DNA of 22,728 bases from a virus, in IMG/VR virus record IMGVR_UViG_3300047552_000195, positions 1-22,728 of that record. The stretch is one strand, 5' to 3'. The notes under the pieces were generated by a model. The model worked only from the letters and a program-made list of their open reading frames with translations. It did not search any database and was not told where the DNA came from. The position numbers and the translations under genes were made by a program. Below are positions 1-19,473 of the stretch, piece after piece. Within the stretch, counting starts at the first letter, position 1, and each line of letters starts with the position of its first letter.

Positions 1-65
1 ATCGATCCGTAATGCTGTTCGTAGATTTTACGATAGTCTACTTTTGTTCTTTTGTGCCTACTCAT
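1..65 (-). CDS. N-terminus of a probable HNH homing endonuclease (cut by window edge)
   Basis: Only the first 21 codons lie in the window. They read MSRHKRTKVDYRKIYEQHYG and continue off the left edge. A basic start followed by YRKIYEQHYG is typical of phage free-standing HNH endonucleases, in which it is usually followed by IPxD and the HHIDG core; that core is outside the window. A TTGACT-N17-TATTAT promoter ends six bases before the ATG, so the message would be leaderless, and I see no Shine-Dalgarno sequence. The HNH family call is from memory of the N-terminal pattern. The presence of a start codon with a promoter is seen directly. Confidence 0.5.
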   Translation of the reverse strand, partial: MSRHKRTKVDYRKIYEQHYGS

Positions 66-100
66 CAATACATAATACACTGATTTTACTAATCAGTCAA
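66..100 (-). promoter_or_regulatory. Sigma-70-like promoter of the partial HNH gene, with palindrome in the spacer
   Basis: Read on the minus strand, the -35 box TTGACT is at 100-95, the spacer is 17 bases and the -10 box TATTAT is at 77-72. Six bases then lead to the ATG at 65. A perfect 7-bp inverted repeat (ACTGATT / AATCAGT, 79-85 and 91-97, 5-base loop) fills most of the spacer and touches the -35 box, so it could be an operator. It could also be a weak hairpin closing the upstream 124-aa gene. Confidence 0.6.
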
Positions 101-109
101 GTATTCTGG

Positions 110-484
110 TTATTTGAACTTGACTCGTTTGGTAGTCGGCACTGGACTCTTCTTTTGTGTGTCTTCTAGTTCACGAGATAGCATATCACCATTGTTCAAG
201 TCGTGATGTTCACTGCCAATAGCCTTGTATGCTTTTTCTAGCATCTTTTGCTCGGCTTCGGTGTATGGATGAGCAGTGTTGAATCGACCACTCCAGCTTT
301 CTTGGCTAACTAATGGATCGATTTCACCGTCTGTGGCGGCAACTGCCATCATCACCCGATTGAGTTCGTAGATGCGATCATATCCATTAGGGTCTCTGAA
401 CTTTGCCAGCCCCCTAGTAGATTGACTGTTTCTCTTGCTGATTTTCGCAGCCTTAGATTCGCCTACGAACTCTCGCGCTCTCAT
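110..484 (-). CDS. Conserved phage protein of unknown function, 124 aa
   Basis: I do not recognise a biochemical function. The sequence has a basic start (MRAREFVGESKAAKISKRNS), a helical middle containing YELNRVMMAVAATDG (about residues 40-54), then SWSGRFNTAHPYTEAEQKMLEKAYKA and a polar Lys-rich tail. From memory this layout, including an acidic DLNNGDMLSRELEDT segment, is a recurrent small protein of marine T4-like phages. There is no signal peptide or membrane segment. Its ATG shares one base with the stop of the 746-aa gene upstream (TAATG at 486-482), so translation is probably coupled and the two proteins may be made in related amounts. It is the last gene of the minus-strand virion block before the HNH gene. 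Confidence 0.75.
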   Translation of the reverse strand: MRAREFVGESKAAKISKRNSQSTRGLAKFRDPNGYDRIYELNRVMMAVAATDGEIDPLVSQESWSGRFNTAHPYTEAEQKMLEKAYKAIGSEHHDLNNGDMLSRELEDTQKKSPVPTTKRVKFK

Positions 485-2724
485 TACTTGATACCAGCTA
501 GTTTACGCATTTCAGCAGCTACATCGATGTTGTAGCCTTCACTGACTTTTACACTAGTATGTGGCAACACTGTTTGATCCTTCTTCTGACCGTTGAGTCC
601 GCCTGAGATTGCCTTAGTAAAGTACTCGATTGTTGCTGTAAAGTCTTCGTCTTCACTCTGACCTTGTGGTGAGTTTGCCCACTCATTTAGTTGCTCTTCG
701 TCGCCGTGTGAGCACTCGTGATGATCACCTTCGTACATAGCGCCACATTCGTTACACTGTGTCTCTGCTGATTCTTCGACCTTTTCTTCGTCTTCTGAAT
801 CTTCGATTGCGTTACCGACAGCACCTTCGTGCTCTTCTTCTTCGCTTTCAACTTCGCCGTCTTTGTCGTAGTCTTCATCAGCCTTTTCGTCGCTCCACTC
901 TTCGTCTACGACTACTTCTTCACTGTCTTCTTCGTCGGAAGTTTCTTCTTCACTGTCGCTGCCAGCGTCGAACTCGTTGTGCTTAGGCTCAGGAGCAGCA
1001 TCACTGCCAATACCCATTGCTGCTAGCATCTGCTTCATCGCTGACATACCGCCGTCATCTTCACCAGACAACTCTTCTTGTGCGCCGTCGAAGTCAGTAA
1101 CTTCAACATCGCTTGGCTCTTCTGTACCGGCTGTTGAGAATGAACCACCCTCTTGACTTGCGCCGTGTGCTTTTAGTAAGTCTTCAACTGGGTTAGTTTT
1201 GACTGCGTGACCTGGTACACCACTGCCCATGCCAGCGTTGTTTAGTAGCGCTAGTAATTGATGTGCGTCTTCGTCGTTAGCAGTGATACTAACTGAGTCT
1301 GATGCGCCTTCTTGGCCTACTGATGTAGATACTGATAGACCTTCTTTGACTACTTGCTTACTCTCAGTGATTTGCTTGCCTTCTAGTAGTGTCTTTAGTT
1401 GAGCATCCCACTTAGAGATTGACTCATCGATTTCTTCACTATCAGCTTTAGTTTTGATTCGGTGCTTGGCAGATAACTTACCAACTTCTTTCTTTGGCTT
1501 CTTGCTGCCGCCGAATGCGCCGCTTAGAGCATCGAAGTTGTATTCTTTCTTTTCGCCAGTCTCACTGTCAGCATCTTTCTTAGGACGACCACGGCCTTTT
1601 TTAACTGCTGTTGACTTGACTTTCTTACCTTCGTCGTCTGTATCATCTTCGTGTTTACGACCGTAACCGCCTGCGTCAGCAGTATGCTTGACACCAGTCT
1701 TTGTCTTTACTGTAGCTTCATCAACCTTCTTAGCACGTAGGGCTTCGAAGTCTGACTTTTCTAGCTTGCCATTTTTGTTAGCGTCTAGCTTAGCTTGACC
1801 GCCCTTTAGTTTTTTACTTTCGTACATTGTGCTTTCCTCTGTTGGTTGTTTTAGTCTTTTCTCTAGTTCACTTACTTCTTCTAGTGTGTCTTCTGGTAAT
1901 ACTTGGCCTTGACCAGTATCTGTGTTGAATGTGCCGTAGCTACGGTCTTGGCCCTTTACTTGTGCTGATAGTTCAGCGCTGTCTGGCTTAGATGTAGTTC
2001 TGATACCTTGAACGCCTGGATGTGCTTTAGCGATGTCTTGTTTCCACTTGTCGTGTTGAGCGTCTAGTTCATCATTCTCTGTAACTAGTTGTGTATCTTG
2101 AGCATAGCACTCTTCTACATGCTTGCGTAGTTCTTCACTGGGACCCGTCCAGATTGAACGAGGGATGCGACCTTCTGCGTGATAGTGATCTGTTAGTGCT
2201 TCAATCAAGCTAGCGTCCATGCCCCAGCCTTCTTGAGCCATCTTGTGCTCGTGAGGATAGTTACTTAGAATAGCGTCTAGTTTACTAGCAGTCATGATAC
2301 TCTCATTGAGTTGAGTAGTGTCGTCAGTTTCTTCTTCGACTTCTTCTGCTAGTTCTTCTTCATCCCAACCAACTAGGCCCATTTTTCTTGGAGCTGCGCT
2401 AGATAATCCTTCTCCATCATCTTCTTCTAGTGGCTCACCAGTTTGTGGATCCATCAGCGTGACGTTGCCCGCATTCACTAAGTCACCTAGTTTCTTAGCG
2501 TCAGCAGCATCTGCTTGAGCGATTACTTTACCAGCTTGATTAGTGATCGTTGCTTGAGGTTGAGTTGATTGCTGTTGTGGTTGACCTGGCTTGACTAGAA
2601 CTTTCTGACCTTGTTGAGGAGTAGTAGCAGTTGATGTAGTAGTGCCGATGGTGGGTGCCATAGCAACCGCTTCGCTTACTTGTTGATTCGCTTCTACTTG
2701 AGCGATGAATGATTTTAGACTCAT
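484..2724 (-). CDS. Very acidic, low-complexity phage protein with EF-hand-like loop and zinc-type Cys/His cluster
   Basis: Function unknown. The first ~90 residues are Gln/Thr/Pro-rich. About residues 310-325 carry DANKNGKLEKSDFEAL, which fits a calcium-binding EF-hand loop (D1, N3, N5, G6, D12). Residues ~365-400 include a basic KKGRGRPKK patch. Around 465-500 is a compact segment (GLSVSTSVG...SDSVSITANDEDAHQLLALL) of a kind I recall from other marine T4-like phages. Residues ~575-650 are almost entirely Glu/Asp/Ser. Residues ~655-675 hold a CNECGAMYEGDHHECSHG zinc-ribbon-like cluster. The protein ends with DVAAEMRKLAGIK. AGGAG lies 14 bases before the ATG, inside the upstream gene, whose stop is 3 bases away. 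High charge and position among head genes would suit a scaffold or internal head protein, but that is inference only. Confidence 0.8.
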   Translation of the reverse strand: MSLKSFIAQVEANQQVSEAVAMAPTIGTTTSTATTPQQGQKVLVKPGQPQQQSTQPQATITNQAGKVIAQADAADAKKLGDLVNAGNVTLMDPQTGEPLEEDDGEGLSSAAPRKMGLVGWDEEELAEEVEEETDDTTQLNESIMTASKLDAILSNYPHEHKMAQEGWGMDASLIEALTDHYHAEGRIPRSIWTGPSEELRKHVEECYAQDTQLVTENDELDAQHDKWKQDIAKAHPGVQGIRTTSKPDSAELSAQVKGQDRSYGTFNTDTGQGQVLPEDTLEEVSELEKRLKQPTEESTMYESKKLKGGQAKLDANKNGKLEKSDFEALRAKKVDEATVKTKTGVKHTADAGGYGRKHEDDTDDEGKKVKSTAVKKGRGRPKKDADSETGEKKEYNFDALSGAFGGSKKPKKEVGKLSAKHRIKTKADSEEIDESISKWDAQLKTLLEGKQITESKQVVKEGLSVSTSVGQEGASDSVSITANDEDAHQLLALLNNAGMGSGVPGHAVKTNPVEDLLKAHGASQEGGSFSTAGTEEPSDVEVTDFDGAQEELSGEDDGGMSAMKQMLAAMGIGSDAAPEPKHNEFDAGSDSEEETSDEEDSEEVVVDEEWSDEKADEDYDKDGEVESEEEEHEGAVGNAIEDSEDEEKVEESAETQCNECGAMYEGDHHECSHGDEEQLNEWANSPQGQSEDEDFTATIEYFTKAISGGLNGQKKDQTVLPHTSVKVSEGYNIDVAAEMRKLAGIK

Positions 2725-2727
2725 AGT

Positions 2728-3339
2728 TTACTTTCTAGCTCCTGTTGCTGGTAAAGCTGGACGCTTTACTAAACTCATAGGGCTCTTTGTATTCATAGCG
2801 GCTTGTTGTTTGTTCACATCGAACGGTGAGAATGCGTCTGTTGTTTTCTTACCAGCGAACTCTTGTTTGATTTCTTTGCCCTGTTCTTGGGCTCTAATGC
2901 GTGATAGATAACTATCGCCGTATTCTTTACTTGCTTCTTTACCGTTATCTTCTAGGGAGTCGTTGCCTATTAGGGGACTAGGTTGATTAGCATACATTTC
3001 AGCTTCTTGCTCAGCGCTGTCAGCATAATCTGCTTGAGTCATACGAACTAGATTTTCATCTACGCCTAGTAATTGAGCCATCTGTCTGACCATAGGTTCA
3101 GTAGCTGGGTATTTGAACTCAACATCGAAGATTGCAACTGATTGATCTTTTAGTTCAGGGAATCCGTGAGGTTGTGCTTGAACTGGCGTAGTCTTAACAT
3201 CCCCAATTTTTACAGGATCGAACTTTTGTAAGTTGTGTTTGAACAACTCAAGGAATTGTTTTGGAGTTTCGCCAGCGATACGGATTTTGTATCTGTATGT
3301 TCTGACCGACTCTGCTAGGTATTTACGAAATGATTTCAT
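2728..3339 (-). CDS. Conserved phage protein of unknown function, 203 aa
   Basis: I chose the ATG at 3339 rather than an in-frame TTG at 3399. The TTG would overlap the terminase-like gene by 35 bases, and the protein from 3339 begins MKSFRKYLAES, a start seen repeatedly in T4-like virion genes. The first ~100 residues look like a compact alpha/beta domain (TYRYKIRIAGETPKQFLELF, then VAIFDVEFKYPATEPMVRQM, then LLGVDENLVRMTQ), which resembles a small domain with alternating strands and helices. The rest is polar and probably disordered. A GATAAATA late-promoter box lies 27 bases upstream. The 746-aa gene starts 3 bases after the stop, so the two are co-transcribed. The function is not known to me. 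Confidence 0.75.
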   Translation of the reverse strand: MKSFRKYLAESVRTYRYKIRIAGETPKQFLELFKHNLQKFDPVKIGDVKTTPVQAQPHGFPELKDQSVAIFDVEFKYPATEPMVRQMAQLLGVDENLVRMTQADYADSAEQEAEMYANQPSPLIGNDSLEDNGKEASKEYGDSYLSRIRAQEQGKEIKQEFAGKKTTDAFSPFDVNKQQAAMNTKSPMSLVKRPALPATGARK

Positions 3340-3364
3340 AGGGCGTTTTATTCCAGTGTATCTC

Positions 3365-3883
3365 TTATTTATCTTTGGCGGCTGATTTACTTTGCTCAAG
3401 AATCTGCTTAATGAGTTCGTTTCTGTCGAGTACTGTGCCTTGACCTAGAGGAGTAGTCTCAGTGTTTGTTTCGCCTTTGGCTGCGGCCGCTGCTAGTTTT
3501 CGTTCAAGTTCTGCTTGTTGTAGCTGTAGGGATAGCATTTTGAGCTTTTTATTGACTTTTGCCGTCTTTGTTGTGATAGCGTGACCTAGCATTGAACTAG
3601 CTGAATTGAAGATTTCACTAGCGAATCTAGAATCTACTTGCATTCCTAAGTCCATAAGATTCTCGAACGCTTCTTTTGCTAATGCTCCTAGCTCGTCCAT
3701 CTCTTGATCAGATGCTTCAAGCCCCCTAACAGCTGGCAGTGCTGATTCTACCTTTTCGATTGTGTTTAGTGTTTCTTCGGATATGTAGCTTTGCGGGATT
3801 TCTTCCGGCACTTCTGGCGTGATGTCGTCTTGGATTTCATCATCGATTGGCAGGTTAAACAGGTCTTGTAGTTGTCTGGTCAT
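3365..3883 (-). CDS. Probable terminase small subunit (gp16-like DNA packaging protein)
   Basis: T4 gp16 is about 164 residues, with an acidic start, a central helical oligomerisation region and a polar tail; this 172-residue protein has the same build. It has an acidic N-terminus (DDEIQDDITPEVPEEIPQ), a long helical core (EMDELGALAKEAFENLMDLG, then SRFASEIFNSASSMLGHAIT and KVNKKLKMLSLQLQQAELER, residues ~60-130) and a Gln/Thr/Lys tail. The helix pairing LGMQVDSRFASEIFNSASSM...KTAKVNKKLKML parallels the gp16 pattern in which a helical segment precedes a lysine-rich helix. Small terminases form rings that recognise viral DNA and regulate the gp17 motor; gp17 is not in this window. The gene sits just downstream of the gp4-like gene. 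The ATG follows a CTAAATA box by exactly six bases, with no Shine-Dalgarno site. The call rests on architecture rather than on a catalytic motif. Confidence 0.6.
   Translation of the reverse strand: MTRQLQDLFNLPIDDEIQDDITPEVPEEIPQSYISEETLNTIEKVESALPAVRGLEASDQEMDELGALAKEAFENLMDLGMQVDSRFASEIFNSASSMLGHAITTKTAKVNKKLKMLSLQLQQAELERKLAAAAAKGETNTETTPLGQGTVLDRNELIKQILEQSKSAAKDK
3366..3373 (-). promoter_or_regulatory. Late promoter box GATAAATA for the 203-aa and 746-aa genes
   Basis: On the minus strand GATAAATA overlaps the last codons and stop of the gp16-like gene (GAT AAA TAA). It lies 27 bases before the chosen ATG at 3339. Because it is also coding sequence the match could be chance, but it agrees with nine other copies placed before genes. 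Confidence 0.5.
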
Positions 3884-3889
3884 AGTAGT

Positions 3890-3898
3890 TATTTAGAC
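3890..3898 (-). promoter_or_regulatory. Late promoter box GTCTAAATA, six bases before the gp16-like ATG
   Basis: The 15-base gap between the gp4-like and gp16-like genes consists of GTCTAAATA plus ACTACT and then ATG. There is no room for a ribosome-binding site, so transcription starting six bases after the box would begin at or beside the A of the start codon. The identical 9-mer GTCTAAATA occurs at 11485-11493 before the HNH-like gene. Confidence 0.6.
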
Positions 3899-4333
3899 CT
3901 ATTTAGAACCATTTCTAAAAATGTCTTTCTCTGTGATTACTCTGAATACTACACCCGCTCTTTTACACCAGGCTTGCGCTGCTGCCCACTTTGCTTGATT
4001 CACTACCGCTGCTGCCTGAGCGTGTCTTGATTTGCCTGCTTCCTGTAAGCTAGTTTGCTTTAGTGGTTTTATTTCAATCAGTTCTGCTACTTGTCTACCG
4101 GTCTTGTTTTGATAAACTACTAAGAAGTCTGGCACATAGATTGTTTGCTTACCGGTCAGTGGGTTCCGATATGGGATACGAATACTTTCACTAGCCCACT
4201 GTAACACATGATCGTTGTTATCACAGAACATCATGAATGTCATCTCCCAGCCGCTACGATATCTTGGCTTGCCTAACCCTACATACTTTTGAGGGTTCTT
4301 GATTTCATAGATACCTTGAGCAAACTTGGCCAT
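3899..4333 (-). CDS. Head completion nuclease, T4 gp4-like (TnsA-type fold)
   Basis: This 144-residue protein matches the T4 gp4 (gp50/gp4) head-completion family in length (about 150) and motifs. It has YRSGWEMTFMMFCDNN near residues 26-41, then ASESIRIPYRNPLTGKQTIYVPDFLV (~48-73), then AELIEIKPLKQTS (~85-97). E29, D69 and the E-I-K triad at ~87-89 fit the acidic residues and lysine of restriction-enzyme-like (TnsA N-terminal) nucleases. In T4 this protein acts at the filled head before neck assembly and is thought to trim DNA ends. The start codon shares a base with the stop of the 111-aa gene (TAATG), so translation is coupled. The fold assignment is from family knowledge. Activity is inferred from the conserved residues. 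Confidence 0.82.
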   Translation of the reverse strand: MAKFAQGIYEIKNPQKYVGLGKPRYRSGWEMTFMMFCDNNDHVLQWASESIRIPYRNPLTGKQTIYVPDFLVVYQNKTGRQVAELIEIKPLKQTSLQEAGKSRHAQAAAVVNQAKWAAAQAWCKRAGVVFRVITEKDIFRNGSK

Positions 4334-4668
4334 TACTGTACGATGTTTCTTGCTACGGGTTGATTAGCTTGAATGATATTGTTCACTCCATACATCACTG
4401 TCTTATCACTGAATGAGTTTAGATAATATGCCATGGTCATAGTCATCGACATCTTATCAGTGCCTTCGAATGATTCAAGTAGTGTTAATACATCGATTTC
4501 TGTCTGCTGGGAGATTCTGTACAAATTCTCAGTAAATGACTTCGCTGTCTTTTCAGAAGTGGTCATGTCTTTGAAGAACGCTAACACTATTTCATATGTG
4601 TTTGGATCTATTTTCAGATTGACTGAATTGAATGTATCAGATAAACTGACTGTTTTAGTATTTGCCAC
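4333..4668 (-). CDS. Small conserved virion-region protein, 111 aa
   Basis: The start codon is GTG at 4668, supported by AGGAG seven bases upstream and a GATAAATA box before that. The protein is mostly helical: a strand-like start (TKTVSLSDTFNSVNLKIDPN), then YEIVLAFFKDMTTSEKTAKSF, a segment TEIDVLTLLESFEG, and a C-terminal AYYLNSF...ARNIVQ. There are no cysteines, membrane segments or catalytic motifs. I recall similar ~100-residue proteins beside virion genes in marine T4-like phages, but their role is unknown to me. It is the first gene of a short operon with the gp4-like nuclease, to which it is joined by a TAATG overlap, so a role in head or neck completion is possible. Confidence 0.7.
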   Translation of the reverse strand: MANTKTVSLSDTFNSVNLKIDPNTYEIVLAFFKDMTTSEKTAKSFTENLYRISQQTEIDVLTLLESFEGTDKMSMTMTMAYYLNSFSDKTVMYGVNNIIQANQPVARNIVQ

Positions 4669-4686
4669 GATTGTGCTCCTGTGATT

Positions 4687-4694
4687 TATTTATC
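4687..4694 (-). promoter_or_regulatory. Late promoter box GATAAATA before the 111-aa gene
   Basis: On the minus strand GATAAATA is followed by an 18-base leader with AGGAG seven bases before GTG. The box abuts a perfect 7-bp hairpin (4692-4710). Confidence 0.7.
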
Positions 4695-4710
4695 AGTATT
4701 TTTTACTGAT
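4692..4710. repeat. Perfect inverted repeat ATCAGTA / TACTGAT overlapping a late promoter
   Basis: ATCAGTA (4692-4698) pairs with TACTGAT (4704-4710) around five T residues. It lies between the tube-fold gene (stop 4727) and the late box of the 111-aa gene, and shares three bases with the box. It has no clear U-tract on the minus strand, so it is more likely a protein-binding or RNA-processing site than a terminator. Confidence 0.55.
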
Positions 4711-4726
4711 GCTGGAGTTTGACCGT

Positions 4727-5779
4727 TTACTTGTTGTCGCCGCCGCCGAACGAAGGCAATTTGAACTGAGATGGATTTGATAGGGCTGAGAATGCTGCGT
4801 TTTTGACTTCACGTTTTACCGCATCTACTACCTCAGATGTGTTCTTGAATGTCTTAGATACAGCAACTGCTTTTTGTACAGCGCCCAGATAGTTCTTACC
4901 ATCAACATCAGCGATGATACCGTCTAGAGCATCAACGAGCCCGCCTTGACCCATAATGGATTTATTACTACCGGCTGTGGCAATCGGACTTAGGGTTCTA
5001 TCATAATAAGTTTCACTGCCGAATGTAGGAACTGTTGCTCCTGGATTAGTGCCGTTGATAGCGCCTTCTTGATAAGTGACTGTCTCGTATCGAACAGTCA
5101 TTTTATTTTCCATGGTGCCTGTTGCTTGTGAATAGTCATATGTATCATGATCGAAGCGTTCGATGATGGGGTTGACTAAGGTGTATGTACTAAAGCTATG
5201 CTGGTTAAAGCCAAAAATTTTAATTGACTTGAAGAAGTTTGGTTTAGGCTGACCAACTGCTGCTGCTTGAGCACTTGTAGTAGGTTCCCCAAGATAACCC
5301 CAGTTTGCCTCCGCACTGATGTCTTCTTTGTACATGTACTTCTTATTTACTTGATCGGGGTTCAGTCTTGCTGTCGTCGTATCGTTGTAGTAATAAGAAT
5401 AGTAGTTGTGCCAGATTTTTTTGATGGAGCCTAAGCTATCATCATGGAATGCGATTTGAACAGGATCGTACTTGATTTTAGTTTGAACATAACGAGTTCT
5501 GTTGTACTGATTGAGTTCTGCTAACTGCATCGAATACTTAGGCAACGAGATATTTTTGACTAACAGTCCTGCTAAGTCTTTTTCAGGGAATGCTGCTGGG
5601 TTCGACGCAACTAAAGTATCGTTGATCTCAAAGTAGACATGGAATAAGAACTTTAGCTTTGGCGCATTGCCAAAGCCGTTAGTTCTAAATGTCTTACTCG
5701 CATGTTGGACATCACGTAAGTTGGGCGTTCCTTTTAACCCAACTACGCCTTCAATATATTGTTGAAAGAATCCAGCCAT
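4727..5779 (-). CDS. Tail-tube-fold protein, 350 aa (gp19 relative; possibly baseplate-tube junction)
   Basis: The protein has the alternating features of contractile-tail tube proteins. These are LKFLFHVYFEIND (~43-55), LLVKNISLPKYSMQLAELNQ (~71-90), then RTRYVQTKIKYDPVQIAFHDD (~94-114) with IKKIWHNYYSYYYND, and later KSIKIFGFNQHSF and NKMTVRYETVTYQEGA. Strands around 'V(K)N(I)SLP' and a late 'M(T)VRYE(T)VTY' strand are the same elements seen in the adjacent gp19-like protein. At 350 residues it is much longer than gp19 and near the size of T4 gp48 (364) and gp54 (320), the tube cap and initiator. The C-terminal ~90 residues are Ala/Val/Ser-rich and end FGGGDNK. Nine bases separate it from gp19, so they are co-transcribed. 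No good ribosome site is visible. The exact T4 counterpart is uncertain. Confidence 0.7.
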   Translation of the reverse strand: MAGFFQQYIEGVVGLKGTPNLRDVQHASKTFRTNGFGNAPKLKFLFHVYFEINDTLVASNPAAFPEKDLAGLLVKNISLPKYSMQLAELNQYNRTRYVQTKIKYDPVQIAFHDDSLGSIKKIWHNYYSYYYNDTTTARLNPDQVNKKYMYKEDISAEANWGYLGEPTTSAQAAAVGQPKPNFFKSIKIFGFNQHSFSTYTLVNPIIERFDHDTYDYSQATGTMENKMTVRYETVTYQEGAINGTNPGATVPTFGSETYYDRTLSPIATAGSNKSIMGQGGLVDALDGIIADVDGKNYLGAVQKAVAVSKTFKNTSEVVDAVKREVKNAAFSALSNPSQFKLPSFGGGDNK

Positions 5780-5788
5780 AGCTATTAG

Positions 5789-6418
5789 TTAGTTGACGCC
5801 AGTACTACCAGCGATGTGCCCAGCAGTAGCTACGGGATTATCGCCACCTAAGCCATACTGAATAGCATTGTCATAACGGACAGTAGCACTGATTGTCACA
5901 GCTTCATTTGTACCGTAGTTTAATGTGTTGTAGTTTACAGCACTTAGATAACAACCATAGAGTTGCCATTCTTCTAGTATTGATGCTCCTGACCCTTTAT
6001 TATCAGTACCATTGCCACCATCCAAGATTTGAATTTGCATGTTGAACTTGTAATCGATGCCTGCAGCAGCACTTGATTGTTCTTGGAAGTCCATTTGCAT
6101 TTGAACTTGTTTGCCAATAATTCCAGCTACTGTACCATTAACATCGTCACGAACGTTGAATGTGATTGGTTCCCAAGTTGGCTTACCGGCTAGATACACA
6201 CGACTGTTGTAGATTTCTAGTGGAATTTCTGGGAATGATACGTTAGGACGTGTTACGTCGATAACTTGTCTAGTTAGTGATAAAGGGTCCTTTTCGTTAC
6301 CGATGTTACTGAAAAGTACTCTAAAACGATACTGTAGTTTGGGCATCAATAGTCCCTGACCTGTACTTACGCCATCCGCTCCCGGTACAGTCATGTTGTT
6401 TAATGATGAAAATGCCAT
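5789..6418 (-). CDS. 19: Major tail tube protein, T4 gp19-like
   Basis: This protein forms the inner tube through which DNA passes after sheath contraction. At 209 residues it is slightly longer than T4 gp19 (163). The recognisable elements are LLMPKLQYRFRVLFSNIG (~23-40), then LTRQVIDVTRPNVSFPEIPL (~48-67), a YNSRVYLAGKPTWEPITFNVRDDVNG segment (~70-95), and a late EEWQLYGCYLSAVNYNTLNY...VTISATVRYDNAIQY (~146-189). The 'RPNVSFPEIPLEIYNSRVYLAGKPTWEPITF' region is the typical marine T4-like version of the gp19 first sheet. It follows the sheath gene, as gp19 follows gp18 in T4. AGGAG lies nine bases before the ATG, and a GATAAATA late promoter lies 22 bases before it. Confidence 0.88.
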   Translation of the reverse strand: MAFSSLNNMTVPGADGVSTGQGLLMPKLQYRFRVLFSNIGNEKDPLSLTRQVIDVTRPNVSFPEIPLEIYNSRVYLAGKPTWEPITFNVRDDVNGTVAGIIGKQVQMQMDFQEQSSAAAGIDYKFNMQIQILDGGNGTDNKGSGASILEEWQLYGCYLSAVNYNTLNYGTNEAVTISATVRYDNAIQYGLGGDNPVATAGHIAGSTGVN

Positions 6419-6440
6419 TGTTTATTTCTCCTGTTAATCT

Positions 6441-6448
6441 TATTTATC
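6441..6448 (-). promoter_or_regulatory. Late promoter box GATAAATA for gp19
   Basis: On the minus strand the box sits just after the gp18 terminator hairpin. It is 22 bases before the gp19 ATG, with AGGAG between. It gives the abundant tube protein its own promoter in addition to any read-through from gp18. Confidence 0.75.
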
Positions 6449-6450
6449 TT

Positions 6451-6480
6451 TAAAATAGTGAGTGGTTGCCCACTCACTAT
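6451..6480 (-). terminator. Terminator-like hairpin after gp18
   Basis: ATAGTGAGTG (6455-6464) and CACTCACTAT (6471-6480) form a perfect 10-bp stem with a 6-base loop, starting 10 bases after the gp18 stop. On the minus strand it is followed by TTTTAAAG, a short T-run. The late promoter of gp19 begins three bases later, so transcription can stop and restart here. Confidence 0.7.
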
Positions 6481-6489
6481 GTAGTCTTC

Positions 6490-11464: not shown

Positions 11465-11478
11465 CTCTACTAGTAGAG
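11465..11478. repeat. Perfect 14-bp palindrome between gp18 and the HNH-like gene
   Basis: CTCTACTAGTAGAG is a perfect palindrome centred between the divergent promoters of gp18 (minus) and the HNH-like gene (plus). It sits nine bases before the plus-strand CTAAATA box. It could be a dimer-binding operator. No partner protein is identified, and the abundance of CTAG in this genome weakens the case. Confidence 0.4.
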
Positions 11479-11484
11479 TTGGTA

Positions 11485-11493
11485 GTCTAAATA
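11485..11493 (+). promoter_or_regulatory. Late promoter box GTCTAAATA before the HNH-like gene
   Basis: The box is followed by only four bases (CATT) and then the ATG at 11498. No ribosome site is present. A second CTAAATA on the same strand at 11395-11401 is an alternative start that would leave a leader of about 90 bases. Confidence 0.5.
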
Positions 11494-11497
11494 CATT

Positions 11498-11842
11498 ATG
11501 AGGCCTATCTGTCCAGTGTGTAATAAAAACCCCAGAGCACCTGCTTACTATCGTAACAATAAACGTTATTACCGTAGCAGATGTAACGACTGTATTCGTC
11601 GAAATAAGGATGTAAAGCCTCAGATACCTCGCTGGCAGTTAGACGGTTACAAGAAGAAGATGACTTGTGATATCTGTAAGTTCAAAGCCAAGTACTCTAG
11701 TCAGATCACCGTATGGCACGTAAACGGTAAGTTGAATGATAACTCTCTGACTAATCTACGTAGCGTATGCCTGTGCTGCGTAGAAGAAGTCAAGCGGAAT
11801 AACTTTACTTGGCGCCGGGGTGACCTAGAAGTTGATCCTTGA
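11498..11842 (+). CDS. HNH-like zinc-binding protein, 114 aa
   Basis: There are two zinc-type clusters. The first is C5-x2-C8 with C29-x2-C32 (CPVC ... CNDC). The second is C57-x2-C60 (CDIC) with C91 and C94 (CLCC). Between C60 and C91 is VWHVNGKLNDNSLTNLRSVC, which matches the HNH pattern of His, xNG, DN and NL followed by a Cys pair, but the usual final CH is CC here. It may therefore be a structural or DNA-binding relative without nuclease activity. Similar short proteins are common in marine T4-like phages, from memory. It is the only plus-strand gene among minus-strand neighbours, and its 3' end overlaps that of dNMP kinase by 38 bases. The ATG was chosen because the first cysteine pair follows at once. 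Confidence 0.65.
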   Translation: MRPICPVCNKNPRAPAYYRNNKRYYRSRCNDCIRRNKDVKPQIPRWQLDGYKKKMTCDICKFKAKYSSQITVWHVNGKLNDNSLTNLRSVCLCCVEEVKRNNFTWRRGDLEVDP

Positions 11843-12455: not shown

Positions 12456-12457
12456 AA

Positions 12458-12494
12458 TAAAAAACTCCCGTATTACTTATCATAACACAGGAGT
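12458..12494 (-). terminator. Hairpin with T-run after gp13; its arm carries the dNMP kinase ribosome site
   Basis: On the minus strand ACTCC (12494-12490) pairs with GGAGT (12468-12464). Inner pairs are AC/GT and TAA/TTA, and the loop is 7 bases. Six T residues follow the right arm. This is a credible rho-independent terminator for gp13, whose stop is 21 bases upstream. The GGGAG of the right arm is also the only Shine-Dalgarno sequence for dNMP kinase. Confidence 0.7.
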
Positions 12495-12506
12495 CTAGTT
12501 TGTAAA
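12479..12506 (-). promoter_or_regulatory. Sigma-70-like promoter of dNMP kinase inside the hairpin
   Basis: On the minus strand TTTACA (12506-12501), a 16-base spacer and TATGAT (12484-12479) match the -35 and -10 boxes at five of six bases each. The -10 box lies at the hairpin loop, so a transcript starting here lacks the left arm and leaves GGGAG unpaired. Confidence 0.5.
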
Positions 12507-12514
12507 GATGGTAG

Positions 12515-13270: not shown

Positions 13271-13274
13271 GTAA

Positions 13275-13301
13275 AAATACCCTAGTGTTAGTAGGGTATT
13301 T
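13275..13301 (-). terminator. 10-bp hairpin before gp13, overlapping its late promoter and ribosome site
   Basis: AAATACCCTA (13275-13284) and TAGGGTATTT (13292-13301) form a perfect 10-bp stem with a 7-base loop. It lies between the MazG-like stop and the gp13 ATG. On the minus strand the right arm ends in a run of five T residues. The left arm shares bases with the GATAAATA box, and the right arm contains the AGGG ribosome site of gp13. Confidence 0.72.
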
Positions 13302-13304
13302 ATC
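13297..13304 (-). promoter_or_regulatory. Late promoter box GATAAATA for gp13
   Basis: On the minus strand the box overlaps the base of the hairpin at 13275-13301. Initiation about six bases downstream would remove most of the left arm from the RNA. Confidence 0.7.
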
Positions 13305-13305
13305 G

Positions 13306-13674
13306 TTATTTGACGAACGGCACGAGGTTAGGTGGTTGCCAGTCAGCAGGTTTGAGTACTTTACCGTCCTCACGTTTGCGTACTTTGCCAGTCTCTGGGT
13401 CGATCTTAGCGAAGTTTGTCCGCATCACTTCGTTCCATGCTCCCTCTACGTCGAAGCCGCCGGAGTGTAGTGCGCCGATAGTCACTACTAAGATGTCGAT
13501 GAGAGCATCTAGTTGTTCCACGCGGTCATTGTTGGCCAGTGCTAGTTTGAACTCGTCGTTGTACTCTTCCTCGATTAGGTCACAGTAGAGTTTGTACTGT
13601 GCTTCGTTTAGTGTACCGGTTGTTTGGTCACAAGCGGTCATAAATCGGTATTGATCTGCGATTGGTGTGGTCAT
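13306..13674 (-). CDS. MazG-like nucleotide pyrophosphohydrolase, 122 aa
   Basis: The protein fits the all-alpha NTP pyrophosphohydrolase (MazG / phosphoribosyl-ATP pyrophosphohydrolase-like) family. It has a metal-binding EEEYNDE at ~35-41, a partner helix QLDALIDILVVTIGAL (~53-68) with D56 and D60, then EVMRTNFAKIDPETGKVRKR (~81-101) and a conserved end KPADWQPPNLVPFV. Such enzymes hydrolyse (d)NTPs to monophosphates plus pyrophosphate. In phages they are thought to clean or redirect nucleotide pools, sometimes including alarmones. The start is two bases after the methyltransferase stop, so both are in one operon driven by the TTGACT/TACAAT promoter. The substrate cannot be told from sequence. 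Confidence 0.8.
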   Translation of the reverse strand: MTTPIADQYRFMTACDQTTGTLNEAQYKLYCDLIEEEYNDEFKLALANNDRVEQLDALIDILVVTIGALHSGGFDVEGAWNEVMRTNFAKIDPETGKVRKREDGKVLKPADWQPPNLVPFVK

Positions 13675-13676
13675 TG

Positions 13677-14264
13677 TTATGCTTTCTGTAATACTAGTCC
13701 GTGTTGATCGAACTGTTGTTTGAACTTCTGGATGTTAGGTCCGAAGTAGATGAACACTTGGCCGCGAGTATTGCCGCCAAGTGATTTGCCGTCAGGCGCG
13801 TTGAATCCTATTCTGTGATCAGTAAAGCACCAAGCACTAGCGTGAGTGGCTAGTCGTTTGAACCACTTTGTATCAGTTGAGTTGTTGACTAAGATGATGC
13901 CTTCTTTGAAGTGCTTGAGTGTGAACTGTTCGATGAACTTGTCTACAGCGGCACCGCATAGTGGGCCGTAGGGCGGATTCATCCATACCGAATGGGCTAC
14001 CCAGTCAACTTCTAGTGAGCTATCTTCCTCGGAGTGATACTTGGTAGCTCGTACTACGTCATTAGCAAGGGCACTACTAAATGGATCTAAGTCGATAGTG
14101 CCTAGTACTAGTCTGGCGCTTTCGATGTACTCGGGTGGCGTGTACCAACTGTCGCTATCACGCCCTGCTTTAAGTTTTGTTACCGGCGCGCCGACGTAGC
14201 CTAGATTTTTTGCTACCGCCTTATTAGACGGTTGCTCTTCTGTAAACTCGAATAAGTTAGTCAT
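13677..14264 (-). CDS. Phage N6-adenine DNA methyltransferase (Dam-type, PF05869-like)
   Basis: The protein has the hallmark order of the phage DNA N-6-adenine methyltransferase family. It has SWYTPPEYI at ~39-47, then TIDLDPFSSALAN (~56-68) in the cofactor-binding position, and WMNPPYG (~94-100), the catalytic NPPY motif. These are followed by DKFIEQFT, a hydrophobic strand IILVNNSTDTKWF (~123-135) and GFNAPDGKSLGGNTRGQVFIYFG (~148-170). The length of 195 residues is usual for the family. It transfers a methyl group from S-adenosylmethionine to adenine in DNA, probably to shield the phage genome from restriction. The target site is not visible; GATC occurs in the window and is one candidate. 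It has no ribosome site, and its -10 box ends six bases before the ATG. Confidence 0.87.
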   Translation of the reverse strand: MTNLFEFTEEQPSNKAVAKNLGYVGAPVTKLKAGRDSDSWYTPPEYIESARLVLGTIDLDPFSSALANDVVRATKYHSEEDSSLEVDWVAHSVWMNPPYGPLCGAAVDKFIEQFTLKHFKEGIILVNNSTDTKWFKRLATHASAWCFTDHRIGFNAPDGKSLGGNTRGQVFIYFGPNIQKFKQQFDQHGLVLQKA

Positions 14265-14299
14265 TTTACCATTGTATCTTGTATTTCAGTCGAAGTCAA
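14265..14299 (-). promoter_or_regulatory. Sigma-70-like promoter of the methyltransferase operon, predicted leaderless
   Basis: On the minus strand TTGACT (14299-14294), a 17-base spacer and TACAAT (14276-14271) are followed by six bases and the ATG. The A of the start codon is at the expected +1. Confidence 0.65.
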
Positions 14300-14301
14300 T
14301 G

Positions 14302-14316
14302 TATAATGGATAAATA
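14302..14316 (+). promoter_or_regulatory. Overlapping early-type TATAAT and late-type GATAAATA boxes for the GIY-YIG gene
   Basis: TATAAT at 14302-14307 has a weak TTGTAT 17 bases upstream. GATAAATA at 14309-14316 is a full late box. Both would give leaders of about 55-65 bases containing a possible pseudoknot and the AAGGAG site. Confidence 0.55.
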
Positions 14317-14321
14317 AAAGT

Positions 14322-14360
14322 GTGGTTCACGAGCGTAGGAACTCTAACCACTCTAACGCT
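14322..14360 (+). ncRNA. Possible H-type pseudoknot in the leader of the GIY-YIG gene
   Basis: Two complementary pairs are interleaved. GTGGTT (14322-14327) pairs with AACCAC (14346-14351), and AGCGT (14332-14336) pairs with ACGCT (14356-14360). The connecting stretches are 4, 9 and 4 bases. The AAGGAG ribosome site starts three bases after the last stem. This is a paper fold only; it has not been tested against shuffled sequence. Confidence 0.4.
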
Positions 14361-14377
14361 ACAAGGAGCAATCAGCA

Positions 14378-15079
14378 ATGTTATTTAGTAGAAGAAATCC
14401 ACCACCTGGGTTTTATCATTACCTGTATCTAAGAGAAGACGGGTCGCCGTATTACTCAGGCAAGGGTAAAGGCGCTAGGGCATGGAAAGAACACGGGGTA
14501 TCTATACCTCCCGATGAACGAATAGTATTCACTCACTGGAATCTAACTGAGTTGTGGGCATTTGCCTTAGAACGATGGTATATTCGTTGGTATGGTCGTA
14601 AAGATATAGGCACCGGTATTCTTAGAAATAGAACTGACGGCGGCGAAGGTGCCAGTGGGCATCGACAGACCGAACAAGATAAGAAAAAGAAAAGCATCGC
14701 TCAACTAAAAGCAAGAGCGGAAGGTAAGGGTCCTAAGCCTGAAAATATCAGCGCTGGTAGAAAGGGCATAATACCTAAAAATCATCCATCATTTTTTGGA
14801 AGCGATAATCATAAGAAAAAGATGATAGAAAAATATGGGGTTGATAACCCATCATTGATTCCGGAAATCGTAGCTGGTAAGATTGGCAGCGGGAATGGCA
14901 GGTTCGATCATCGGGTGTATGAGTGGAATAACGTCCGAACTAATGAAACTATTCACTCCACTAGATACGATATGATACAGAGATTTGGTATAAATGTGAA
15001 TGTAATGGTGAAAATAATAAAGGGCGTCAGAAAGACACCCTGTAAAGATTGGATTTTAGTTACCACGCCTTTAGAATGA
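14378..15079 (+). CDS. GIY-YIG homing endonuclease, free-standing (copy A)
   Basis: The N-terminal nuclease domain reads [20 protein letters not shown] (~5-24), then [15 protein letters not shown] (~25-39), with the catalytic-type arginine in RAW. This is followed by [20 protein letters not shown] (~65-84), which supplies the usual glutamate, and [14 protein letters not shown]. The C-terminal part is Lys-rich with a [21 protein letters not shown] segment and an ending of the DNA-binding NUMOD1 type ([17 protein letters not shown]). It is closely related to the endonuclease at 21505-22158 over the first ~100 residues but differs in the DNA-binding half. It has AAGGAG nine bases before the ATG. 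It is inserted between two minus-strand genes, and its last 20 bases overlap the end of the 401-aa gene. Such enzymes spread themselves into sister phages lacking them. Confidence 0.87.
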
Positions 15080-16265
15080 TAATGTTATCATTCATTCTGC
15101 CATTGGGCTCGATGCCAACGGTAGTTAGGTCAGTGAAGAACTTTCTACTTGCCGGTTTACCAACTTTCATAAGTTCATTCAGTGTTGTTGGCTTTCTCAT
15201 TGTCTTTGTTTGACTTTTTACTTTATCGAAGCCTAAGATAGTATTGCCTTTTACTGATAATGACTTAGCATAATCATCTGCTGTTAGATAAATGAGTTTT
15301 CTTTTGGCAGTGTCGTATAAGAAACACTCCGTACAGCCGTGTAGTTTAGTCGGTGAGATACTTTCGAGCTTGAGTTTGTGTGTGGCGTCTTCGAACTTTT
15401 TGAGGTACTTGAGATTTTTGACGATTTTCTCAACAGGTACTGCTTTACGTGCTCTTGGCGCTTTGCTTGCTTTTTTAACTGATGAGTATCCGTTCAAGTC
15501 AGCGATGATTGCTTCGCAGAACTTGATAAGTGCTTTCATTTGTGTCTTGTTATAGTGAGCGTATGCTTCACGGAGTTGCTTGTCGTCTGTGTCTAGTACT
15601 TCCGTGAACTCTTTGATCTTCTTTTGCCAGATTTCTACTAGCATTGAGATGTGTTGGGGCAAGATGTTGCGTTCACTCAGCTCTTTCATTACCTTGCCGT
15701 CTGTTTTGAGTTTTAGATCAGCGCCCATGAACTCATCAAGTACGCCTTCTAGTTCGCCCTGTGCTTCACGAGCGCGTTCTCTCATAATCTCTTGTACGTT
15801 CGGTCGATTTGATTGAGGTGCTTCTTCGACTTTAGGTTTGAATGCGTCTGTTGTTTCTGGTGCTGATAGGGTAACTACTAGTCTCGTGATTTCGTTGTCT
15901 AGTCGTTGCTGTTCGTCCGATAATAAGTCTAGACCGCGTAGCGACAGTCGTGCTAGCCAAGCGTATGTAGTAATGATCTCGCCTTCGCCTACTTTGGCCA
16001 TCTTTTTAGCGAGTTCTTCTCGATCATTGTACAGGAGATAGTCACACAAGATTTCTTTTGCTTGTTTTGTGCCATAGAACCTGCTGTACCAGTTGAAGCT
16101 CATAGCAAGAGCGCCACGGCGATGCTCGATCTCTGGTTGCACGTTGAACACAGGCTCACTACCAGCGTATTTTGTCTCTGTATCGCTTGGACGCAAGTCT
16201 TTTGCGATGGTGCGTTCTGTTGGGTCAGCACTTTTCTTTGAAGTTTTTGTTGATTTGGTAGCCAT
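15060..16265 (-). CDS. Unknown phage protein, 401 aa, lysine-rich and helical
   Basis: I do not recognise a function. The N-terminal 45 residues are polar ([20 protein letters not shown]). Then comes a helical region [20 protein letters not shown] (~49-68) with [20 protein letters not shown], and [20 protein letters not shown] (~103-122). A charged coiled-coil-like middle (~150-260) includes [20 protein letters not shown] and [20 protein letters not shown]. The C-terminal third (~285-400) is more compact, with [29 protein letters not shown] (two cysteines). There are no Walker or nuclease motifs. I recall proteins with a similar RRGxxLxxNWY helix in marine T4-like phages, always uncharacterised. 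It lies alone between two endonuclease genes, with its own TTGACT-type promoter. Confidence 0.7.
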
Positions 16266-16292
16266 AGTTGATTATTTTGAATAATAGTAGTG

Positions 16293-16321
16293 AGTGTAGC
16301 AGAATGGTCAGTTCTAGTCAA
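16293..16321 (-). promoter_or_regulatory. Sigma-70-like promoter of the 401-aa gene
   Basis: On the minus strand TTGACT (16321-16316), a 17-base spacer and TACACT (16298-16293) lie 27 bases before the ATG. No strong ribosome site is seen. A closer TATTAT on the same strand is an alternative -10 without a good -35. The -35 box is part of an inverted repeat shared with the divergent promoter. Confidence 0.45.
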
Positions 16322-16347
16322 TAGAGAATGGAACTATTCACTATTGA
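16318..16347. repeat. Inverted repeat TCAATAG / CTATTGA joining two divergent promoters
   Basis: TCAATAG (16318-16324) and CTATTGA (16341-16347) are exact reverse complements 16 bases apart. Each half overlaps the -35 box of one of the divergent promoters (minus TTGACT at 16321-16316, plus TTGATT at 16344-16349). One regulator could touch both. Confidence 0.45.
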
Positions 16348-16378
16348 TTTTATATTGTCCAAATGATATAATACATAT
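16344..16378 (+). promoter_or_regulatory. Strong sigma-70-like promoter of the second endonuclease, predicted leaderless
   Basis: TTGATT (16344-16349), a 17-base spacer and consensus TATAAT (16367-16372) are followed by six bases and the ATG at 16379. There is no Shine-Dalgarno sequence. Confidence 0.72.
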
Positions 16379-17059
16379 ATGAAAAAGATTTATCTAATGG
16401 TCAAGACACATAAAGTTACTGGGTTGAAGTACTTATGTAAGACTATCAGATCAGATTATATAAAGTATCAAGGCTCAGGCATTTATTGGCGTAAGCACCT
16501 CAAGATACACGGCAATCTAGTAGATACAGAAGTTCTTATGATACTTGATACCGATGAAGAACTAAAGAAGTGGGGCTTGTACTACAGCGAATTGTGGAAT
16601 ATAGTCAATGATGTCGATGAGAATGGTAAGAAGACTTGGGCGAACGAGAAGCCAGAGAGCGGAGACGGTGCTGCCAGTGGTAAATATCATCATAGTAGCG
16701 ATAAGACCATCTATACATTCTATCACGATGACGGGAGAGTAGAAGTGTGCTCTAGATCCGAACTACAAAGCAAATACGGCCTACATCGTGGGGCAGTGTC
16801 TAGTATATTACGTGGAGAATATCATACGGTTAATGGCTGGAGAATAACCGAGGCCAAACAGAAGTGGAAGATATCACAGGTCGCCGAGAAGAACAATAAC
16901 TACGACAAGAATATATACTCATTTATTCATGATGATGGCAGAACAGAAGATTGCACAGCGTATGATCTACGAACCAAATATAACCTCAATGCCGGTAGCG
17001 TTAGCGGCGTAATCAATGGCAATCAGCATCGTGTTGGTGGCTGGAGGCTAGTCAAGTAG
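16379..17059 (+). CDS. Probable GIY-YIG-type homing endonuclease with two NUMOD1-like repeats
   Basis: The N-terminus (MKKIYLMVKTHKVTGLKYLC, then YQGSGIYWRKHLKIHG and EELKKWGLYYSELWNIVND) is the divergent GIY-YIG type found in SegE-like phage endonucleases, with WANEKPESGDG closing the domain at ~100. Two DNA-binding repeats follow: TIYTFYHDDGRVEVCSRSEL...NGWRIT (~110-158) and NIYSFIHDDGRTEDCTAYDL...GGWRLV (~176-225). The same helix pattern (KYGLHRGAVSSILRGEYHTV and KYNLNAGSVSGVINGNQHRV) appears in each. The gene lies between the 401-aa gene and gp14, and its stop is one base before gp14's late promoter. Cleavage activity is inferred from family likeness, since the GIY motif itself is degenerate (IYLMV). 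Confidence 0.72.
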   Translation: MKKIYLMVKTHKVTGLKYLCKTIRSDYIKYQGSGIYWRKHLKIHGNLVDTEVLMILDTDEELKKWGLYYSELWNIVNDVDENGKKTWANEKPESGDGAASGKYHHSSDKTIYTFYHDDGRVEVCSRSELQSKYGLHRGAVSSILRGEYHTVNGWRITEAKQKWKISQVAEKNNNYDKNIYSFIHDDGRTEDCTAYDLRTKYNLNAGSVSGVINGNQHRVGGWRLVK

Positions 17060-17060
17060 A

Positions 17061-17068
17061 GATAAATA
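17061..17068 (+). promoter_or_regulatory. Late promoter box GATAAATA, six bases before gp14
   Basis: The box begins one base after the endonuclease stop and is followed by CATGAT and the gp14 ATG. No ribosome site lies between, so a leaderless late transcript is predicted. Confidence 0.68.
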
Positions 17069-17074
17069 CATGAT

Positions 17075-19237
17075 ATGCCACGCCTTAGCCTTTATTCCCC
17101 AACTAAATCCAATAACTTCCGATACCTAGATCGTATGATCAAGGCTCAGTTCGAAGTGGGTGGCACTGATTTACTGATCCATAAGTATCTTGGTCCCGCT
17201 AATACCGGTCCAAGCTCTAGCTTAGTTCAACCGCAGATAACGAAGCCAGATCCATTGGCTATTCAAGACCTATTATTCTTAGAGAATAGAGATCGCAAGT
17301 ACGACAGCGATGTTTATCGCTTGAGAGGGCATTATTCCGTAGCTAACTTGGACTTCGACTTGTCTCAGTTCGGTCTGTTTCTAACTAATGACGTTATTTT
17401 CGTCACTGTTCACTACAACGATATGATTGATTTAGTCGGACGTAAACTAATGGTCGGTGATGTGTTCGAACTGCCGCATCTAACTGACTATCACCCGCTT
17501 AATGACGCTATCCCTGTTGGCCTACGCCGTTATTATCAGATCACTGACGCTAACTATGCGTCGGAAGGCTTCTCTCAGACATGGTACCCTCACCTATGGC
17601 GTATCAAGTGTGAACCCCTAGTTGATAGTCAGCAGTTTGCTGGTATCTTATCTACGCCAACGAACACAGACACTTACATGGGTGATTGGGATGAGACTAA
17701 GACGTATGGTGAAGGATATACAGTGACTTACGGTGGTAAGACTTACACACCTGTCATCGGTAAGGGTCCTGTTCCTGCTGGCACACTGCCGACCGATACT
17801 ACCTACTGGCAAGTTGATACTGCCGGTACTCTAAAAGATTTGATCAGCACCTACAACAAGAATATCGAAATCAATGATGCTGCACTTGCCGAGGCTGCTA
17901 GATTAGTGCCTCAGACCGGCGTTGATCGTTCACAGTTGTACTTAGTGCCGTCCGGCACCGATAATGCTCCTGCTGCGCCAATCAACATCATTACTACTAA
18001 AGATGGTGGACCACAATTGGGCACTGGTACTCTTGCTATGTTCAGGAGTCGTCGTTACAAGAATGCTGGCGTCGGTATCAAGGTCGGCAGAACAGCTAGT
18101 GAGCAGCTAAAGGCTGGCGCTCGTGTTGTTCTTAGCACTGGAACTACTAGTGCCGGTAGAAATGCTGAGGGTAGCGGTCGTGTCAACGGTGATACTGTAC
18201 TAACAGCAACAGTTTACACTGGAACAACTAAAACTGGACCATACGGCACATCAGACAACATCTACTCTACTGCTGACCAAGTGCCTAACTTCTATATCAC
18301 AACAGTAGACACTGTTGCTAAGAGCACTACGGTGTCACTATTAGAGTGGAGTGATGATTTGAAGGTTGGATTGACTATTGCTGGCACTGTTTATAGCGCT
18401 AACGGTACACCTGCTAGTGTTTTTGACGCTGGTACTCGTATCACAGGCTTGAATAAGACAGCCAAGACGGTAACAGTAAGTAGTGCTACTAGAGTTGATA
18501 TGATTGGTGGCGTACAACTCGAAGTTGCTACTGATTTTAGCGGCATCTTCAAGAGTGTATTAGTTGAGCGGACTGGAGTAAGTCAGACTAAGATTATTCT
18601 TGCTTCTTATAATAAAGATTTAGCAGTAGGCAGTGTAATTCGTGCTACGGTAGTAACTACTGACGGCGGCACTACTAGTATTTTCAAGTCAGGCACTACT
18701 ATTACTAGTATCATTGCTGATATCGACAATGATGACTTGACTAACCCGTTGAATACTATCACTATCACTACTAGCAGTGCTACACTTGCTGGTATGAATG
18801 CGGGCGATCGTATTGAGTTCGCGTTTGACGACGGTAAGTTGATCGATGGTACTATGGACTTCCGAGCTGACGAAGATCCACGCTTTCAGTTCATTCGTCG
18901 TGCTAGTCCACGTTCATTCGGCTATCTCGCCGGCTATGGTAGCGGTGATGGTACTGCTCCTAACGGTGAACCTACTGGCAAGGGCATCGTGTTCCCTGCT
19001 AATCCTACCCTGGGCGACTACTTCCTACGCACTGACTACTCACCACAGACCTTATTCCGTTGGGACGGCAGTCTATGGATCAAGATCAGTGAGAAGGTAC
19101 GAACAGCAACTGGATTCGGCGCTGATAGTAAGAACCAGAAGGCTGGATTTATCAACAACACTGCTACAGTTACTCTAGCAGATGGTTCAACTGTACCAAG
19201 TCGCCAGAGTTTGTCGAGTGGGCTCAGGGCTGATTAA
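17075..19237 (+). CDS. 14: Neck protein, T4 gp14-like, enlarged by carbohydrate-binding-like and repeat domains
   Basis: gp14 closes the head with gp13; T4 gp14 has 256 residues and this has 720. The conserved N-terminus (1-195) includes FRYLDRMIKAQFEVGGTDLL, DRKYDSDVYRLRGHYSVANL and a VGDVFELPHLTDYHPLN strand that parallels the gp14 'EGDLIYFP' segment. The conserved C-terminus (~605-720) has EDPRFQFIRRASPRSFGYLA, PTLGDYFLRTDYSPQTLFRWDGSLWIKI and AGFINNTATVTLADG, as in cyanophage-type gp14. The inserted middle has a WDETKTYGEGYTVTYGGKTY unit at ~205-224 ending in TTYWQV, like carbohydrate-binding module 5/12. Two homologous beta repeats follow (~417-476 and ~506-569) with 'LxVGxxI ... GTxITxx ... 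TVTxS' patterns. The last 14 bases overlap the 69-aa gene on the other strand. Confidence 0.82.
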   Translation: MPRLSLYSPTKSNNFRYLDRMIKAQFEVGGTDLLIHKYLGPANTGPSSSLVQPQITKPDPLAIQDLLFLENRDRKYDSDVYRLRGHYSVANLDFDLSQFGLFLTNDVIFVTVHYNDMIDLVGRKLMVGDVFELPHLTDYHPLNDAIPVGLRRYYQITDANYASEGFSQTWYPHLWRIKCEPLVDSQQFAGILSTPTNTDTYMGDWDETKTYGEGYTVTYGGKTYTPVIGKGPVPAGTLPTDTTYWQVDTAGTLKDLISTYNKNIEINDAALAEAARLVPQTGVDRSQLYLVPSGTDNAPAAPINIITTKDGGPQLGTGTLAMFRSRRYKNAGVGIKVGRTASEQLKAGARVVLSTGTTSAGRNAEGSGRVNGDTVLTATVYTGTTKTGPYGTSDNIYSTADQVPNFYITTVDTVAKSTTVSLLEWSDDLKVGLTIAGTVYSANGTPASVFDAGTRITGLNKTAKTVTVSSATRVDMIGGVQLEVATDFSGIFKSVLVERTGVSQTKIILASYNKDLAVGSVIRATVVTTDGGTTSIFKSGTTITSIIADIDNDDLTNPLNTITITTSSATLAGMNAGDRIEFAFDDGKLIDGTMDFRADEDPRFQFIRRASPRSFGYLAGYGSGDGTAPNGEPTGKGIVFPANPTLGDYFLRTDYSPQTLFRWDGSLWIKISEKVRTATGFGADSKNQKAGFINNTATVTLADGSTVPSRQSLSSGLRAD

Positions 19238-19469: not shown

Positions 19470-19473
19470 AAGC

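Follow-up and report, generated by a model that had tools for sequence, protein, structure and literature searches.

The window is a fragment of a T4-like phage and makes up an entire IMG/VR record (22,728 bp). Seven of its genes have a promoter box only four or six bases before the start codon, three of them sigma70-type and four late-type (Table 1). No nucleotide match to the window sequence was found among 50,697 phage records searched, and its closest named relatives by protein are PA5oct, Atu_ph07, Phosso and SCTP-2, all distant large phages. A first-pass annotation had listed five such genes, each with its box six bases from the ATG. All five boxes are present at that spacing (three sigma70-type, two late-type) and all five genes are real members of the class, but the total is seven.

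Table 1. Promoter boxes and genes in the window, with two leadered late promoters for contrast.
Feature	Position	Strand	Details
Partial HNH-like gene, promoter	63-100	-	-35 TTGACT 100-95, 17 bp, -10 TATTAT 77-72, six bases, ATG 65-63
172-aa late gene, function unknown	3365-3883	-	phrog_16202; predicted leaderless
172-aa gene, late box CTAAATA	3881-3896	-	six bases, ATG 3883
111-aa gene, leadered late promoter (contrast)	4669-4695	-	TAAATA 18 bases before GTG, SD CAGGAG
209-aa gene, leadered late promoter (contrast)	6419-6450	-	TAAATA 22 bases before ATG, SD ACAGGAG
114-aa gene, late box CTAAATA	11487-11500	+	four bases, ATG 11498; absent from first-pass annotation
HNH endonuclease-like gene, 114 aa	11498-11842	+	phrog_2255; predicted leaderless
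DNA N6-adenine methyltransferase gene, 195 aa	13677-14264	-	PF05869 Dam; predicted leaderless
Dam-type methyltransferase, promoter	14262-14299	-	-35 TTGACT 14299-14294, 17 bp, -10 TACAAT 14276-14271, six bases, ATG 14264
Endonuclease-like gene, promoter	16344-16381	+	-35 TTGATT 16344-16349, 17 bp, -10 TATAAT 16367-16372, six bases, ATG 16379
Endonuclease-like gene, 226 aa	16379-17059	+	weak NUMOD-like match; predicted leaderless
gp14-like gene, late box GATAAATA 17061-17068	17061-17077	+	six bases, ATG 17075
gp14-like virion structural gene, 720 aa	17075-19237	+	phrog_11591; predicted leaderless
gp15-like gene, late box ATAAATA	19463-19476	+	four bases, ATG 19474; absent from first-pass annotation
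gp15-like tail sheath stabiliser gene, 538 aa	19474-21090	+	phrog_227/11196; predicted leaderless in window only

The three sigma70-type sites also have the -35 boxes first reported for them, TTGACT or TTGATT at 17 bp, and the full pattern TTGAnT-N17-TAnnAT-N6-ATG occurs three times in the window compared to 0.01 expected, a count reached in none of 100 shuffles. The homologue of the 226-aa endonuclease-like gene in the related contig G001 (205 aa) has the promoter TTGACA-16-TATAAT-6-ATG. No family match was found for the partial HNH-like gene, for which the query was only 22 codons.

Late-type sites at a gap of six were not significant in the window alone (2 versus 0.40 expected, equalled in 6 of 100 shuffles) and became so only once relatives were added, and the two late-type sites at a gap of four were weakly unusual (4 of 100 shuffles). 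The box spacing of the 172-aa gene is kept at 4-8 bases across many relatives, and the homologue of the 114-aa HNH-like gene in G014 likewise has its late box four bases from the ATG. We dropped the name 'gp16-like' originally given to the 172-aa gene, whose sole family match is a PHROG of unknown function. The G001 counterpart of the leadered 209-aa gene is a tail tube protein.

Two other features of the window were recorded. At 13271-13310, a 251-aa gp13-like gene with a late box has a leader that could fold into a hairpin, CCCTA...TAGGG, in place of an SD. Two GIY-YIG-like endonuclease genes (14378-15079 and 21505-22155) form a related pair in opposite orientations between late genes, and share the motif FxRRNPPPGxYxYxYLREDxxxYYxGKG.

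Promoter spacing and Shine-Dalgarno sites across related contigs

Because only a 22.7-kb fragment of this phage is on record, a spacing test on its own genome was replaced by one on relatives, comprising the window and 11 related contigs (35 to 239 kb; 1,238 genes). The test measures the gap from promoter box to called start on these metagenomic contigs, with starts called by a simple hexamer coding model that is blind to upstream signals. Sigma70 promoters were searched with at most one mismatch in the -10 and two in the -35 at a spacing of 16-18, and the late box was searched as TAAATA.

A sigma70 gap of 6 was found for 20 genes compared to 1.5 in shuffled sequence (Poisson P about 4e-16), which is the genome-wide enrichment at N6 on which the first-pass annotation had made its proposal depend. 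Gaps of 5-8 accounted for 33 genes compared to 5.3 shuffled, gaps of 10-19 were close to background, and a second broad mode lay at 25-34. For the late box, gaps of 4, 5, 6, 7 and 8 were found in 29, 36, 8, 17 and 6 genes, respectively, with about 1.5 expected for each (96 in total versus about 7). Counts were low at 9-14 and a second mode followed at 16-26; enriched at both 4-8 and 16-26 bases from starts, the box has a T4-type late octamer consensus of roughly [G/C/A]ATAAATA. The proposed spacing of exactly six thus holds for the sigma70 class but not for the late class, which peaks at 4, 5 and 7. The signature of the promoter-near class exceeds dinucleotide shuffles as well. The clade contains 131 near genes spanning 85 protein families, so the peak is not made by redundancy, and 17 families are represented at the sigma70 gap of 6 itself.

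Near and far genes differ in their SD sites. Across the 12 contigs an SD precedes 1 of 33 near sigma70 genes versus 63 of 97 far ones, and 1 of 89 near late genes versus 105 of 164 far ones. With the 11 relatives taken by themselves, the fractions are 1/31 versus 62/96 for sigma70 genes (Fisher p 4e-10) and 2/94 versus 108/169 for late genes (Fisher p 1e-26). The two modes of initiation originally suggested are therefore borne out, with promoter-near genes lacking an SD and promoter-far genes having one, in early-type and late-type genes alike. The start codon is ATG in 127 of the 131 near genes; far late genes also mostly start with ATG, and a preference for AUG alone does not discriminate between the two.

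Predicted transcription starts and alternative explanations

Leadered genes of the same phages were used to calibrate the position of +1. In these, A reaches its highest frequency at the seventh base past the -10 (51%) and at the fifth past TAAATA (60%), so that a gap of 6 from the -10, or of 4 or 5 from the late box, would set +1 on the A of the ATG. Together with the peak at a gap of 6, this calibration would place +1 at the start codon, as in TA-led leaderless genes. A pyrimidine stands just before the ATG in 83 of 94 near late genes (88%) versus 112 of 169 far ones (66%, p = 6e-5), as expected for a bacterial transcription start site; the corresponding excess in the sigma70 class was not significant. 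Where the late gap is 7-8, 82-100% of genes conserve an A at the third base ahead of the ATG, while gap 6 is rare; this conserved A suggests that transcripts from gaps of 7-8 may carry a 3-nt leader.

Judging from promoter position, mRNAs of the near class are very probably truly leaderless and used alongside SD-led ones. The analysis shows promoter position, SD loss, alignment of starts with SD-led orthologues and distribution in the clade. Real promoters would place the transcription start on the A of the start codon or no more than about three bases from it, early and middle near genes being transcribed by the host sigma70 RNA polymerase and late ones from the T4-type late box; the 5'-terminal AUG would then be used by 70S ribosomes or by IF2/initiator tRNA without a Shine-Dalgarno site. 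We infer the exact 5' ends and this mode of ribosome loading.

It is extremely improbable that the arrangement of box and ATG reflects chance in an AT-rich genome combined with sites picked by eye. The weakly unusual late-type counts in the window alone would fit such an account, but the sigma70 sites far exceed expectation there, the relatives show a sharp peak at a single spacing followed by a trough, the SD is missing in the near class only, and the AT-rich controls PA5oct, SCTP-2 and T4 give no peak in the same analysis. It is also very unlikely that the promoters are real while translation begins at a downstream codon, which would make the ATGs miscalled and leave a short leader. Of the 106 near genes that have orthologues in other genomes, 84 match them at the N-terminus; the 22 without an orthologue ending at the same residue are what this account has in its favor. 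Against it, the N-terminus is shared for 33 of 48 near genes with an SD-led orthologue: in alignments, the ATG of the window's gp14-like gene coincides with SD-led ATGs in PA5oct and G022, and that of the 172-aa gene with SD-preceded ATGs in G014 and PA5oct. The starts deposited for Pelagibacter phage HTVC008M are identical to the called starts in all three leaderless genes checked.

A further alternative is that the near promoters yield a minor transcript and that the main translation comes from longer upstream read-through mRNA. T4-like phages read through extensively and late genes are arranged in same-strand runs, but read-through mRNA would offer the near genes no ribosome-binding site, as almost none of them has an SD, and we regard this explanation as very unlikely for the class. 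Some near genes could nevertheless be translated from read-through transcripts with 5' leaders.

Distribution and functions of the promoter-near genes

The late near class was found in all 11 uncultured relatives and in HTVC008M (13 genes versus 1.5 expected), where an SD precedes 2 of 13 near genes versus 9 of 10 far ones. The largest share of near-class genes is about 16%, or roughly one gene in six (20/128 in G001). At late gaps of 4-8, observed versus shuffled counts were 0 versus 1.8 for T4, 0 versus 0.8 for Syn9, 0 versus 0.3 for phiM12, and, over 200 kb each, 0 versus 0.4 for Phosso and 5 versus 3.9 for SCTP-2; PA5oct gave 2 versus 3.4 and lacks the whole class. The class is accordingly absent in T4, Syn9, phiM12, PA5oct and the examined parts of Phosso and SCTP-2.

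Within the lineage the arrangement varies by gene. In the gp4 tree the leaderless form of the 172-aa gene, a gp4 neighbor, maps to the well-supported half containing the window, and the gp14-like gene is near-class in 8 of 13 family members. The gp15-like gene is leaderless in the window, and its orthologues in relatives are SD-led; the window gene and the SD-led G001 gene have the box and next bases CGATAAATAAAG[T/C]AT in common, and the window gene looks as if its leader had been deleted relative to the G001 gene. Conversely, the dNMP kinase gene is leadered in the window and leaderless in G008. The methyltransferase promoter was considered as a conserved unit and rejected, since the orthologues in L111 and L112 lack it, which shows the arrangement coming and going by gene. 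From these comparisons, the leaderless arrangement appears to belong to the lineage and to have been acquired and lost by individual genes.

Sigma70 near genes include primase (G001, G008 and G014), homing-type endonucleases, the Dam-type methyltransferase of the window and a 485-aa protein in G008 and G017 that we take to be UvsW-like. Endonuclease-like genes are common among sigma70 genes at a gap of 6 (in the window, and genes of 205, 225 and 264 aa in G001). The trait is not limited to homing endonucleases, as primase, UvsW-like and other genes have it too, and an SD precedes the homologues of the window endonuclease in L106-L110. Late near genes of G001 include those for the terminase large subunit, a baseplate wedge protein, the ribonucleotide reductase small subunit and a gp14-like protein. 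Those of HTVC008M include genes for the tape measure (at 16007), the DNA end protector (at 18916) and a baseplate protein, and the gene at 19456 belongs to the near class. Leaders are found on the genes for tail tube, sheath and baseplate hub. This distribution hints that leaderless starts serve low-copy products.

Several candidate causes of the class were rejected. Phage-encoded bS21 fails as a simple correlate: it is present in G008, G014 and HTVC008M, but also in PA5oct, where the class is absent, and in Atu_ph07, and it was not found in G001. Phage-encoded IF3 occurs only in Atu_ph07 among 20 records. A habit taken over from the host was examined in one Pelagibacteraceae genome (280 kb), which represents the host of HTVC008M at the level of the family; it had no peak at 6 (0 versus 0.7), and the -10 alone at gap 6 gave 5 versus 3.1.

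Lambda cI and other single phage mRNAs are leaderless, with a 5'-terminal AUG and no SD, and leaderless initiation has mostly been studied on a few mRNAs such as lambda cI. The genes described here resemble cI in their predicted 5'-terminal AUG without an SD, but they are both early and late and span 85 families. Leaderless mRNA is a known oddity; a class so large and recurring was not seen in T4 or the five other cultured relatives examined for comparison. In bacterial leaderless genes, a TA-like signal (TANNNT) precedes the start by about 10-12 bp (Zheng et al. 2011, PMC3160421). Like these TA-led genes, the phage genes lack an SD and keep their -10 box at a constant, short spacing from the start codon; they differ in belonging to a lytic phage lineage and in also using a T4-type late box, for which the polymerase is directed by the phage. 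In T4 late promoters, TATAAATA and the start are separated by about one helical turn (PMC2988020); box and geometry are alike here, with leadered late genes at 16-26 bases from the start, whereas in T4 itself the late box lies 4-8 bases from the start codon in 0 of 247 genes. A search of open-access full text turned up no description of such leaderless genes in these phages, HTVC008M included, and papers on the related phages Mosig and Melnitz mention 'leaderless' only in a gene-finder reference. HTVC008M (Kyanoviridae), which shares the late near class, is cultured, infects SAR11 and is thus a phage in which 5' ends can be mapped, and the lineage offers many natural pairs of leaderless and leadered orthologues for asking what leaderlessness does.

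AUU and AUC starts and a possible role of IF3

In some SD-led relatives, the codon at the conserved start of genes that are leaderless in the window is ATT or ATC. For the 172-aa gene, the codon that aligns with Met1 is ATT in L012, L013 and L015 (GGAG-N7/8-ATT-ACT-AAA) and in L078 (ATT-ACT-AGA). For the gp14-like gene, the Met1-aligned codon is ATT in L066, L074 and L075 (AGGAG-N8-ATT-CCA-CGT) and ATC in L021, L025 and L029 (AGGAG-N7-ATC-CCT-CGC). In the ATT cases, the upstream reading frame ran into a stop without any ATG, GTG or TTG being found; in the ATC case the sole in-frame ATG further upstream lies across the promoter box and is expected to go untranscribed. An SD followed by ATT at a conserved N-terminus, with no other in-frame start, occurs in two more families (L148:10786 and L103:18478), and ATA was never seen as such a start in the same survey. 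The gp4 phylogeny gives at least two origins for the AUU state. Start prediction in these genomes will go wrong with gene callers that depend on an SD or exclude AUU.

IF3 discriminates against AUU. Reported effects of IF3 include inhibition of leaderless translation and discrimination against start sites that are non-canonical (PMC9031893). We tentatively raise the possibility, which we consider doubtful, that certain low-copy late genes are deliberately kept on initiation that IF3 disfavors, with a leaderless AUG or, where an SD leader has been regained, with AUU or AUC. The link between AUU/AUC starts and IF3 is a hypothesis built on small numbers. If it were true, the level of IF3 or the state of the ribosome during infection would set translation of this late gene set. 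Its products would then be made in low stoichiometry or late, and strong SD leaders would stay with the high-copy tail and head genes.

In L020, L021, L028, L038 and other relatives, the leader of the 172-aa gene contains a short ORF, ATGGATTGGACCCATGACTAA, which ends in a stop overlapping the main ATG, suggesting translational coupling in the leadered clade. Separately, L092 and L093, which correspond to 160-184 kb of G001, the closest long relative, encode about 27 tRNAs, and strong TTGACA-17-TACAAT promoters lie between the tRNA genes.
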